Assembly: GCF_000745125.1 (NCBI RefSeq)
Contig: NZ_JQNF01000005.1
Span: 124,001-188,000, forward strand
Direction of reading: 5' to 3'
Source: Carnobacterium jeotgali MS3
Lineage (GTDB): Bacteria > Bacillota > Bacilli > Lactobacillales > Carnobacteriaceae
Length of the DNA: 64,000 bases
Positions 947-15,415 of the stretch are shown one piece after another. The notes below the pieces were generated by a model. It saw nothing but the letters and a program-made list of their open reading frames with translations, ran no database searches and was not told where the DNA came from. The first letter of the stretch is position 1. Every line of letters starts with the position of its first letter. The position numbers were made by a program, and so were the translations under genes.

Positions 947-2218
947 ATGAATGCTGAAATTATAGCAATTGGAACAGAACTATTAATGGGGCAAGTAATA
1001 AATACAAATGCATCTTTTCTGTCTCGCGAACTCTCATTATTAGGAATAGATGTCTATCACCAGGTAGTCGTTGGAGATAACCCAAAGCGTCTGTTAGAAG
1101 TTATTCAAGTTGCGGAACAAAGAAGTGATCTAGTCATCTTATCGGGAGGTTTAGGGCCTACAAAAGATGATATAACGAAGCAAGTATTAGCTGACCATTT
1201 AACTAAAAATTTGATTTTAGATGAACAAACGATGGAAAAAATAATAGCTTTTCACGAAAATAGAAAACGAACGATGACAGAAAATAATCGATTGCAAGCT
1301 ATGGTAATTGAAGGGTCCACTATTTTAAAAAATGAAACTGGTCTTGCTGCTGGAATGTTTTTAAAACAAAATAATAAAAGCTATATCCTATTACCTGGTC
1401 CGCCTAGTGAACTAGAACCAATGTTTATAAATGAAGTTAGGCCATTATTAATGAGCGAACGAAAGGAAGAAACTCATCTTATATCAAGAGTCTTACGTTT
1501 TTTTAATATTGGTGAATCTCAATTGGCTGCTGAATTAGATGACTTAATTGAAAATCAACAAAATCCTACTATTGCTACCTATGCTGGAAAGCATGAAGTC
1601 ACACTGCGTTTGACAGCAAATGGAGGCACTGCAGCAACTTGTCTTGTCTTGTTGGATAACATGGAAGCAATCGTTCAAAAACGTCTAGGGAAGTATTTTT
1701 ATGGCTATGGAGAGGATACGCGATTAGTAAATGTAGTTGCAGACTTATTGAAAGAACACAAAATGACCTTGACAGCTGCCGAAAGCCTGACTGGCGGTGC
1801 TTTTCAAAGTTGCATAACAAGCGTTTCGGGTGCTAGTGACTATTTCAAAGGTGGCATTGTAACGTATAGCAATGACACGAAAACAAGTGTTTTAGGAGTT
1901 TCTAAAAAAACAATTGAACAGTTTGGCGTAGTCAGTGCTGAATGCGCTATGGATATGGCACAGAAGGCTCAAAAGATGTTTGATTCAGATATAGCTCTTT
2001 CTTTTACAGGAGTTGCAGGCCCAGATGCGTTAGAAAACAAAAAAGTCGGTACAGTCTGGATTGGAGTTGCTGTTAAAGGGAAAATTACTTTTAGCAAAGA
2101 GTACCATTTTGGTAAAGGGCGAGAAAGCAATCGAGAAAAATCAATCATGTCTGGATTAGACTTAATTCGTAGAGTGTTATTAGATCTCCCCATAGATCAG
2201 AAAGTTTTTCTGAAATAA
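947..2218 (+). CDS. cinA: CinA family protein (competence/damage-inducible; nicotinamide-nucleotide amidase domain)
   Basis: This is a two-domain CinA of 423 residues. The N-terminal MoaB/MogA-like molybdopterin-binding fold (about 1-170) contains the GGLGPTKDD motif. The C-terminal PncC/CinA domain (about 260-415) contains AAESLTGG and SFTGVAGP, typical of nicotinamide mononucleotide deamidase. A GTG lies nine bases upstream in frame, but it overlaps the TAGGAG ribosome binding site (933-938). ATG 947, 8 bp after that site, is therefore the better start. Placement just before recA is conserved in many Firmicutes. A separate SOS-type promoter for recA lies in between, so co-transcription is only partial. 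Confidence 0.93.
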   Translation: MNAEIIAIGTELLMGQVINTNASFLSRELSLLGIDVYHQVVVGDNPKRLLEVIQVAEQRSDLVILSGGLGPTKDDITKQVLADHLTKNLILDEQTMEKIIAFHENRKRTMTENNRLQAMVIEGSTILKNETGLAAGMFLKQNNKSYILLPGPPSELEPMFINEVRPLLMSERKEETHLISRVLRFFNIGESQLAAELDDLIENQQNPTIATYAGKHEVTLRLTANGGTAATCLVLLDNMEAIVQKRLGKYFYGYGEDTRLVNVVADLLKEHKMTLTAAESLTGGAFQSCITSVSGASDYFKGGIVTYSNDTKTSVLGVSKKTIEQFGVVSAECAMDMAQKAQKMFDSDIALSFTGVAGPDALENKKVGTVWIGVAVKGKITFSKEYHFGKGRESNREKSIMSGLDLIRRVLLDLPIDQKVFLK

Positions 2219-13287: not shown

Positions 13288-13297
13288 GAGTATGGAT

Positions 13298-14329
13298 ATG
13301 TTAACAACAAAAGATTTTGATTTTGATTTGCCAGAAGAATTGATTGCTCAAACGCCTTTAGAAAATCGCTCAAGTTCAAAACTATTAATTTTGGATAAAG
13401 AAACCGGTAAAGTTGAAGATAAACACTTCACGGACATTCTTGATGAACTTCATGAAGGTGACGCACTAGTTATGAATGATACACGTGTATTGCCTGCAAG
13501 GTTGCATGGCATAAAAACAGAAACAGGCGCACACATTGAAATCTTGTTATTGAAAAATACTGAAAACGACCGATGGGAAACGCTAGTTAAACCTGCTAAA
13601 AAAGCAACGGTAGGAAACGTTATTTCTTTTGGTGATGGTAGACTGACAGCAACAGTAAAAGAAGAATTGACCCACGGTGGAAGAATTATTGATTTCTCTT
13701 ATGAAGGAATTTTCTTAGAAGTGTTAGAATCTTTAGGTGAAATGCCACTTCCTCCTTATATCAAAGAAAGATTGGAAGACAGCGAACGTTATCAAACAGT
13801 GTACGCGAAAGAAAATGGCTCTGCAGCTGCTCCTACAGCAGGGTTACACTTCACACAAGAGCTATTAGAACAAATCAAAGCAAAAGGCGTACAGCTCGTA
13901 TTTTTGACCTTGCATGTAGGTCTGGGTACGTTTAGACCCGTTAGCGTTGATTCAATTGAAGATCATGAAATGCATTCAGAATTTTATCGCCTGACAGAAG
14001 AATCTGCAGCAGCTTTAACGGCTGTTCAAAAGAACGGTGGGAAAATTGTTGCAGTGGGGACAACTTCCATTCGTACGCTAGAAACAATTGGTACAAAATT
14101 TAATGGTGAGTTGAAAGCCGATAGTGGCTGGACAGATATTTTCATTTCTCCGGGCTACAAATTTAAAGTTGTCGATGCTTTTTCAACTAACTTTCATTTA
14201 CCAAAATCAACATTAGTGATGTTAGTCAGTGCTTTTGCAGGAAGAGAACATGTTTTGGCCGCTTATCAGCATGCCGTTGATGAAAAGTATCGTTTCTTTA
14301 GCTTTGGAGATGCGATGTTTGTCAAATAA
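13298..14329 (+). CDS. queA: S-adenosylmethionine:tRNA ribosyltransferase-isomerase
   Basis: QueA transfers and isomerises the ribosyl group of S-adenosylmethionine onto preQ1 in tRNA, giving epoxyqueuosine. The protein is 343 residues and starts [18 protein letters not shown], the canonical N-terminus. An in-frame ATG at 13292 lies one base from the TAGGAG ribosome binding site (13285-13290), whereas 13298 has 7-bp spacing, so 13298 is preferred. Family signatures include [10 protein letters not shown] and [10 protein letters not shown]. It is last in the ruvAB-queA operon. Its pathway partner tgt lies 1.2 kb downstream, separated by an unusual insertion. Confidence 0.96.
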
Positions 14330-14341
14330 ATAAAATAAAAA

Positions 14342-14380
14342 AATAGAAGTTGGCTTTTAGGCCAACTTCTATTGGTTTTT
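14342..14380 (+). terminator. Bidirectional terminator after queA
   Basis: AATAGAAGTTGGC (14342-14354) pairs perfectly with GCCAACTTCTATT (14361-14373). On the plus strand GGTTTTT follows. On the minus strand the hairpin runs into TTTTTTTATTTTATTT, so it can also stop transcripts coming from the right. Confidence 0.9.
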
Positions 14381-14666
14381 AGAGAGGATAGGAGTGAATT
14401 AGCGAATTGTTAAATGAATCTTTTTTTGTTTGAACTTCTTTTAAAAACGACATACAGGTTCTTTACTACTTTTTTAAAACTGTCTTTAAATTATCTTTAA
14501 ACTCTTTAAATGGTACTCAGTTACTAATTTTAAAATAATCTTTCTATTAAACTAATGGGACAGTGAATCAGGTAACGCAAAACAGAATGTTGATTTTACA
14601 TGTTTTTTCTGAATCTAAACACCAAAGAAATTCGACTAATTCACTTCTATAAGCGTCTCTCTATCC
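14381..14666. repeat. Inverted-repeat-bounded gene-free element between queA and the TetR gene
   Basis: The arms AGTGAATTAGCGAATT (14393-14408) and AATTCGACTAATTCACT (14629-14645) are complementary with one bulged base. Outer blocks also match: GGATAG at 14386-14391 with CTATCC at 14661-14666, and AGAGAG with CTCTCT. The AT-rich interior has three TCTTTAAA copies at about 14484-14510. No credible reading frame was found. It could be a small mobile element (MITE-like) or the gene of a non-coding RNA closed by a long terminal stem. Together with the flanks it accounts for most of the 489-bp gap at 14330-14818. Confidence 0.5.
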
Positions 14667-14672
14667 ACTTAT

Positions 14673-14702
14673 AATATACCACATTAAGAAAGCGGTTACC
14701 AA
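14673..14702 (-). promoter_or_regulatory. Minus-strand promoter pointing into the inverted-repeat element
   Basis: Read on the minus strand: TTGGTA (14702-14697), 18 bp, then TGG-TATATT (-10 at 14678-14673). A transcript would start near 14666, cross the element and meet the minus-strand form of the queA terminator, about 325 nt in all. Confidence 0.45.
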
Positions 14703-14730
14703 TTATGTGTCTTGGAAATCTAAAAAGAGT

Positions 14731-14758
14731 TTGTTTTCTAAAAATAGTGTGATAAACT
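14731..14758 (+). promoter_or_regulatory. Putative promoter of the TetR-family gene
   Basis: TTGTTT (14731-14736), 16 bp, TAAACT (14753-14758). The leader contains an imperfect AGT…ACT palindrome (about 14769-14784) that could be an operator, but this is weak. Confidence 0.4.
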
Positions 14759-14818
14759 ATTATATTGAGTGAGCACGTACTTGTTTTAAGAGTAGGTTGA
14801 ATTTGGAGGTCAAAGTAA

Positions 14819-15415
14819 TTGGCAAACGTAAACACAGAAGCATTAACGAATACTCAACAACGTATTATTGATGCAGCATTAGATATCGTTTCACATGTAG
14901 GCTATAAAAGTACAACAACTAAAATGATTGCACAAAAGGCTGAAGTTAATGAAACAACTATTTTTAAAAATTTTCAATCCAAACAGGTTTTGATAGATAC
15001 GGCATTTAAGCAACATACAACACAAATTACTAAAGAAGTGGATGAATTTTTTTCTCAGACCTTTAATAATACAACTGATTTAATGAAAGAGTCAGGCCGT
15101 TTTATGGCAAATATTTTCGATAAACATCGACAAATTGTGATTGGTACAATTAAAGAGGTTGGAAACGAACAAACAAAAACGATTTTTACGTATAAACAAG
15201 AGTATATTCAGCAACAGCTTTGTACTAAATTAAAAGAATTTTCAAAGGATCACTCATTAACGGACCAACAGTATGAGACAATTATTTTTATTTTTAACAG
15301 TGCAATTATGAATCTTTTAGTTGATAAAGCGAGAAGAGAATATTCGGATGATGAACAATCTATGACGATTCATTTGGATGATGTAATTGAGTTGATATTA
15401 AAAACATTGAATTGA
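14819..15415 (+). CDS. TetR/AcrR family transcriptional regulator
   Basis: The 198-residue protein has a typical TetR N-terminal helix-turn-helix at about 10-60 (QQRIIDAALDIVSHVGYKST, then NETTIFKNFQSKQVLIDTAF). A helical, divergent ligand-binding domain follows. The start is TTG, preceded by TTTGGAGGTC. The ligand is not predictable. It has no neighbouring efflux or enzyme gene, since the genes on both sides are tRNA-modification genes, so it is either self-regulating or controls remote targets. It interrupts the queA-tgt-yajC order common in Firmicutes, which suggests insertion. Confidence 0.88.
   Translation: MANVNTEALTNTQQRIIDAALDIVSHVGYKSTTTKMIAQKAEVNETTIFKNFQSKQVLIDTAFKQHTTQITKEVDEFFSQTFNNTTDLMKESGRFMANIFDKHRQIVIGTIKEVGNEQTKTIFTYKQEYIQQQLCTKLKEFSKDHSLTDQQYETIIFIFNSAIMNLLVDKARREYSDDEQSMTIHLDDVIELILKTLN

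Follow-up and report, generated by a model that had tools for sequence, protein, structure and literature searches.

Two enterococcal small RNAs are the closest described relatives of the RNA gene considered here. According to the accessible text of PMC12870237, Ern0160 (sRNA_0160) of Enterococcus faecium Aus0004 is a minus-strand RNA flanked by queA and a calcium P-type ATPase gene, with no ORF and a length of 362-370 nt. The same text names Ref19C (EF0869_EF0871) of Enterococcus faecalis V583, beside queA and mgtA, as residing in the same context; this RNA is 474 nt long and is given 24% identity with Ern0160. Published Northern blots detect both RNAs. As far as the accessible parts of the reports go, expression of Ref19C is specific to cells starved for 24 h, with an exponential/stationary array ratio of 0.06, and Ern0160 accumulates late and drops 11-fold with daptomycin. 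Furthermore, Ern0160 is reported to bind two LysM mRNAs directly in gel shifts, and its overexpression lowers carbohydrate genes, whereas deleting it altered just 13 genes in the experiment reported.

The window analyzed here is a 64,000-nucleotide stretch of the Carnobacterium jeotgali MS3 genome. It carries a candidate RNA gene that resembles Ern0160 in its minus-strand position by queA, its lack of an ORF and its size class, and that differs in being shorter (~330 nt) and in having other neighbors (TetR and tgt genes). We consider it probable that positions 14336-14668 (minus strand) encode a trans-acting sRNA of the Ern0160/Ref19C family, one that is repressed by CcpA and switched on at sugar exhaustion, with closed ends and inner segments that contact targets.

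The queA-linked locus and its fold

A gene-free stretch separates queA from a TetR-family gene (Table 1), and the minus-strand RNA predicted within it has a purine-rich start and a complementary 3' end. The inner arms constitute a 15-nt inverted repeat that is 93% complementary, with its ends 233 nt apart. An earlier, sequence-only reading of this DNA had noted the complementary ends, and these lie where it placed them and form the closing helix of the minus-strand RNA. It had also proposed the extended -10 promoter, a queA terminator usable by minus-strand transcripts and an unannotated ncRNA of ~325 nt with a long closing stem. Both elements are present, and the RNA itself gains support from conservation, covariation, synteny and the published expression of its enterococcal counterparts. 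Two further pairs on its list, GGATAG/CTATCC and AGAGAG/CTCTCT, do exist, but they are mutually exclusive registers rather than two stacked helices.

Table 1. Features of the queA-linked RNA locus in window coordinates
Feature	Position	Strand	Basis or remark
ncRNA gene (Ern0160/Ref19C-like)	14336..14668	-	~330 nt; start and end predicted, 5' end from the -10 box
Promoter TTGGTA-18-TATATT, extended -10 (TGG)	14673..14702	-	promoter scan; kept in alignments
Putative cre (CcpA) site GGTAACCGCTTTCT	14687..14700	-	1 mismatch in 11 specified positions; covers the -35 box and the spacer
Closing helix, 5' side (AGAGAG 14657-14662, inner arm 14636-14650)	14636..14662	-	repeat, fold, covariation
Closing helix, 3' side (CTCTCT 14381-14386, inner arm 14388-14402)	14381..14402	-	repeat, fold, covariation
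Helix 2, 5' strand GAATTTCTT	14625..14633	-	covariation; same motif in Enterococcus at a matching distance from the start
Helix 2, 3' strand AAGAAGTTC	14432..14440	-	covariation; motif count
Conserved motif TACCTGATTCAC, candidate functional loop	14563..14574	-	13/18 Carnobacteriaceae and 19/20 Enterococcus/Vagococcus RNAs
Two-way intrinsic terminator, common to queA and the RNA	14342..14373	both	T-runs on each side; 98.6% of cells paired in 11 sequences
queA, convergent neighbor marking the conserved place	13292..14329	+	gene calls, neighbor comparison
TetR-family gene, opposite side of the RNA	14819..15415	+	present in only part of the family

The promoter by itself proves nothing because it is one of only two promoter-like sites, whereas 3.2 are expected in shuffled sequences. 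Terminator-like sites number two versus 0.3 expected, and the stem of the shared hairpin, flanked by T-runs on both sides, can therefore end transcripts of both strands. The -10 box predicts a minus-strand transcription start at ~14666. The minus-strand fold of 14336-14671 reaches -71.5 kcal/mol (z -4.1), with 0 of 100 shuffled sequences as good; the plus-strand fold of 14380-14671 has a z of -3.3, with 1 of 200 as good. Rfam gave no gathering-level match in the window, with only sub-threshold rows at E<=10 in 14250-14850, and no match in 17 homologous loci.

A conserved region with a promoter and a terminator could also be expected of a leader or small-ORF transcript. This explanation is extremely unlikely, given that no ORF of at least 60 amino acids lies inside the RNA region, where the single minus-strand ORF listed starts upstream of the promoter, and that the RNA ends at its own terminator ahead of queA. 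In addition, an ATG close to the 5' end is not conserved (the window has ACG), and Ern0160 is likewise reported without an ORF in the accessible text of PMC12870237.

Covariation was scored for two groups of RNAs. For 11 Carnobacteriaceae RNAs, the closing helix, helix 2 and the terminator are paired in 96.8% of cells, and the covariation score is 0.215 versus 0.155 in shuffled alignments (0 of 500 shuffles), where the structure was drawn from the same alignment, which favors it, and relatedness stays in the shuffles. Sliding the partner strand cuts the pairing to 40-48%. Further pair types in these 11 RNAs number 18 versus 18.9 in shuffles and thus are not above chance. For 19 Enterococcus/Vagococcus RNAs, scored in the same manner and with the same bias, the two closing helices are paired in 97.8% of cells, the score is 0.562 versus 0.199 (0 of 500), and each of the 10 base pairs in the second helix has changed on both sides somewhere in the set. 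Locus L080 was left out of the structure alignment because it has no recognized terminator, and the RNA end of L034 was placed by hand. The sequence-only reading had suggested looking for the arms in relatives, and the closing helix is both kept and covarying in the 11 Carnobacteriaceae RNAs. On these alignments, the assignment of the window RNA as a predicted structured ncRNA holds.

Distribution and relatives

The C. jeotgali genome (2.52 Mb) carries a single copy of the region, and the sole other row at E<=0.001 is a self-match of the terminator hairpin. A DNA search of 59 genomes, including this one, recovered the region in all five other genomes of the genus and in further genomes of its family (f1, by inference Carnobacteriaceae). 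The RNA lies beside queA in 18 of 18 f1 genomes, own included, adjoining the gene in 17 and located ~2.3 kb away in G010. These results bear on the possibility, raised by the sequence-only reading, that the stretch is a MITE or another small mobile element with terminal inverted repeats, for which complementary ends at this spacing would be suitable. A search for other genomic copies returned none, the position by queA is orthologous throughout the family genomes and the ends covary, leaving this reading with virtually no probability. No target-site duplication was seen by eye in the window sequence, and no empty site was found for comparison.

The earlier claim that the element interrupts the usual queA-tgt order is correct for the related genus g3, where the RNA alone separates the two genes, but in the window the TetR gene also intervenes. 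In g1, g2, Pisciglobus and Desemzia, this gene occupies the space separating the RNA from tgt; g3 lacks it. Its patchy presence among genera indicates that it has been gained or lost independently of the RNA. In Pisciglobus (L026), the 979-base gap between queA and tetR holds repeated blocks (GGATGTGGAGAAAGCCTGGGAGAGTCACAGC and following) upstream of the RNA promoter.

Only remnants of queA are left in G005 (L012, 1834-1960), yet the RNA and its cre site are intact, and ruvB, tetR and tgt are still present. This near-complete deletion weighs on whether the RNA acts in trans or instead in cis, as an antisense RNA directed at queA or the 3' end of that gene. Such a cis role would be in keeping with an RNA that converges on queA and has a terminator in common with it. 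However, the RNA stops at that terminator with no overlap of the queA frame, the cre site lies ~460-1560 bases from the queA end in several Enterococcus loci, and one metagenome-assembled genome (L080) has the RNA on the queA strand. We therefore regard action in cis as very unlikely.

The strand, the place by queA, two motifs and the terminator recur among Carnobacteriaceae, Enterococcus and some Vagococcus. When an Enterococcus HMM was run on 80 named queA loci, 22 matched at E<=1e-3, of which 13 had trained the model; the RNA is on the minus strand in all of them except L080. Above this E value, no clear member was found among the queA loci of Streptococcus, Lactococcus, Tetragenococcus and lactobacilli. 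The Enterococcus caccae/moraviensis group also gave no clear member, and another gene (spx-like) adjoins queA there. The Vagococcus RNA matches the Enterococcus RNA directly (E 5.7e-17). With the promoter excluded, the Enterococcus HMM produced no match at E<=1 to 18 f1 loci, and the corresponding Carnobacteriaceae HMM produced one match (E 0.97) to 24 Enterococcus loci, a difference that also separates the window RNA from Ern0160. Because these RNA-only models fail across families, homology between the two groups is argued from place, cre, architecture and short motifs.

Three motifs were counted in RNAs of both groups. Some 75-100 nt into the RNA, the pattern TAC[CA]nG[AT]TTCA is present in 13/18 Carnobacteriaceae and 19/20 Enterococcus/Vagococcus RNAs (shuffled mean 0.003, with a maximum of 1). 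Some 31-37 nt in, A[AG]TTTCT is found in 12/18 and 10/20 (shuffled means 0.16 and 0.03). Both Carnobacteriaceae counts include L148 with a misplaced start. The partner AAGA[AG][AG]TT[CT] is present in 14/18 (here with the right start for L148) and 16/20, with shuffled means of 0.3 and 0.6. A stricter partner pattern with a preceding T-rich run performs poorly in Enterococcus (2/20).

The link to Ern0160 is provided by Enterococcus lactis locus L029, in which queA (233-1276) is followed by the RNA (1582-1975, minus strand) and a P-type ATPase gene (from 2142). This layout matches Ern0160 as reported, and the L029 RNA is therefore taken as its counterpart, although its predicted length is 394 nt versus the 362-370 nt reported. 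It has the cre site, the closing helix and the motifs in common with the window RNA. Judging from motifs, place, strand, promoter and closing helix, we take the Carnobacteriaceae and Enterococcus/Vagococcus RNAs to be one putative family.

A sequence-only model that includes the promoter (R1) was also run over 395 genomes, of which 128 had a match at E<=1e-3. At E<=1.6e-8, a hand count gave 74 genomes (14 of f1, 56 of f2 and 4 of f8). Among the 54 weaker genomes, 28 were inspected at the locus. Nine of these carry queA/tgt-linked RNAs (L147, L148, L149, L157, L162, L229, L231, L232 and L233, the last matching L232). A further six are mRNA promoters with a cre site (L150, L151, L152, L153, L218 and L226), and L230 probably is as well; the genes behind them include a malE-like lipoprotein gene (L150, L151) and universal stress genes (L152, L153). 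The match in L224 looks like chance, and the other 11 include ORF-free transcripts (L154, L156, L219-L223, L225, L227, L228 and L234). Because the weak matches are mixed in kind, they were not counted as family members.

The cre site and related transcripts

The site over the promoter was scored against TGWAANCGNTWNCW, which we take to be the cre consensus, with 11 specified positions. Such a site, with 0-2 mismatches, is carried by every one of the 34 homologues scored, either on the -35 box or roughly one turn upstream of it. This rate is not unbiased because 14 of these loci were first picked up by the cre pattern and because the search models span the promoter. Locus L092 (Atopococcus) had been left out of this count beforehand because its 5' arm was unrecognized. 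The site is also present in all ten relatives from the same genus and g3 that a plain DNA similarity search had recovered, and it is beside the promoter in 22 of 22 loci matched by the Enterococcus HMM at E<=1e-3. The C. jeotgali genome also has a ccpA gene (540 bits versus a curated cut-off of 442). The sequence-only reading missed the cre site, overlooked that conservation does not depend on the TetR gene and did not identify the described relatives Ern0160 and Ref19C.

For 6S RNA, the accessible text of PMC8414754 reasons that a promoter-overlapping cre would most likely repress. By this analogy, the site in the window most likely mediates repression by CcpA. The literature searched, with subscription journals and supplements outside its scope, holds no statement on CcpA control of Ern0160 or Ref19C, and the term "ccpa" is absent from the accessible text of PMC12870237, PMC5593968, PMC8631354, PMC7724050 and PMC3166299.

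The comparison with 6S RNA extends further. In lactic acid bacteria, this RNA (ssrS) has a cre over its promoter in about one-third of species, together with a long helical build, as described in the accessible part of PMC8414754. Identity with 6S RNA is ruled out, as the window RNA gives no RF00013 match, and a true 6S RNA gene occupies another place in the genome (G000:C5:312828-313015). A 6S-like role, in which the RNA serves as a protein-binding decoy or a regulator of RNA polymerase instead of a base-pairing sRNA, would account for both the long closing helix and the cre control. We judge it unlikely, since the genome already has its true 6S RNA and the gel shifts reported for Ern0160 point to direct mRNA binding. 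A transfer of the LysM targets from Ern0160 was considered separately. The C. jeotgali RNA has a 19-nt AT-rich match to a LysM gene (E 0.435), in a part of the RNA that is missing in G005. When the E. lactis RNA was scanned in windows for pairing with two 5'-truncated LysM genes, the top sites fell outside the frames. Because of these site positions and the truncation of the target genes at contig ends, the transfer was dropped.

Transcripts of similar build but other sequence were encountered at four f9 loci, L219 (G107), L220 (G341), L221 (G369) and L222 (G156). Each has a cre promoter, a 5' arm, an ORF-free body of ~240-660 nt, a complementary 3' arm and a terminator. Examples of the complementary ends, located just ahead of the terminator, are TGTAAAGAG/CTCTTTACA, GAGGAAA/TTTCCTC and GGAAGGAA/TTCCTTCC. 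Rfam matched nothing in these loci other than a tRNA that lies separately downstream in L221. Among 101 f9 genomes, seven contain the L220 RNA, over much of its length in G341 (which has two copies of this type), G156 and G325 and by its terminator end only in the other four. Likewise, L154 (G038, f9), a weak R1 match, has a cre promoter followed by ~550 nt without an ORF and then a terminator. Loci L156, L228 and L234 (f8) and L225 (f4) have a common start like TGTAAGGAACGATAAATTCCCATGATTAGTTTTTAATAC after a cre promoter, with no early ORF and no Rfam 6S match, and L156 adjoins a universal stress gene. We treat the f9 transcripts as a lead. They raise the tentative and rather doubtful possibility of a class spanning the order Lactobacillales, consisting of CcpA-gated, end-closed, ORF-free RNAs of ~240-660 nt that form an RNA arm of catabolite control, with the queA-linked family as one member and the unrelated-looking RNAs of L219-L222 as others.

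Proposed function and significance

For the queA-linked RNA, we infer transcription in C. jeotgali, repression by CcpA and a base-pairing mode of action. While a preferred sugar is present, CcpA bound to the cre site over the -35 box would keep the gene off. Upon sugar exhaustion, CcpA would leave, RNA polymerase would start at the predicted site and the transcript would end at the terminator common with queA. The two ends of the RNA would then pair as the closing helix, probably protecting it, and the TACnnGATTCAC motif and the AAGAARTTC block would likely be the parts that bind target mRNAs or a protein. The starvation and stationary-phase expression of Ref19C, as expected of a CcpA-repressed RNA, the late accumulation of Ern0160 and the carbohydrate genes lowered by its overexpression all fit a release from CcpA.

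RsaI of Staphylococcus aureus, a CcpA-repressed sRNA that is made when glucose is gone, works in a like manner. It is much shorter than the window RNA and differs in sequence and place, and no homology is claimed.

If this proposal is true, an RNA known from two gut opportunists, as a regulator linked to colonization, virulence and daptomycin, would prove to be an old, structured and sugar-controlled RNA retained by three families of lactic acid bacteria. The proposal predicts that Ern0160 is at a low level in glucose-rich medium. This could explain why its deletion changed so few genes compared to the effect of overexpression. The alignments could also seed the first Rfam family for this queA-linked RNA.
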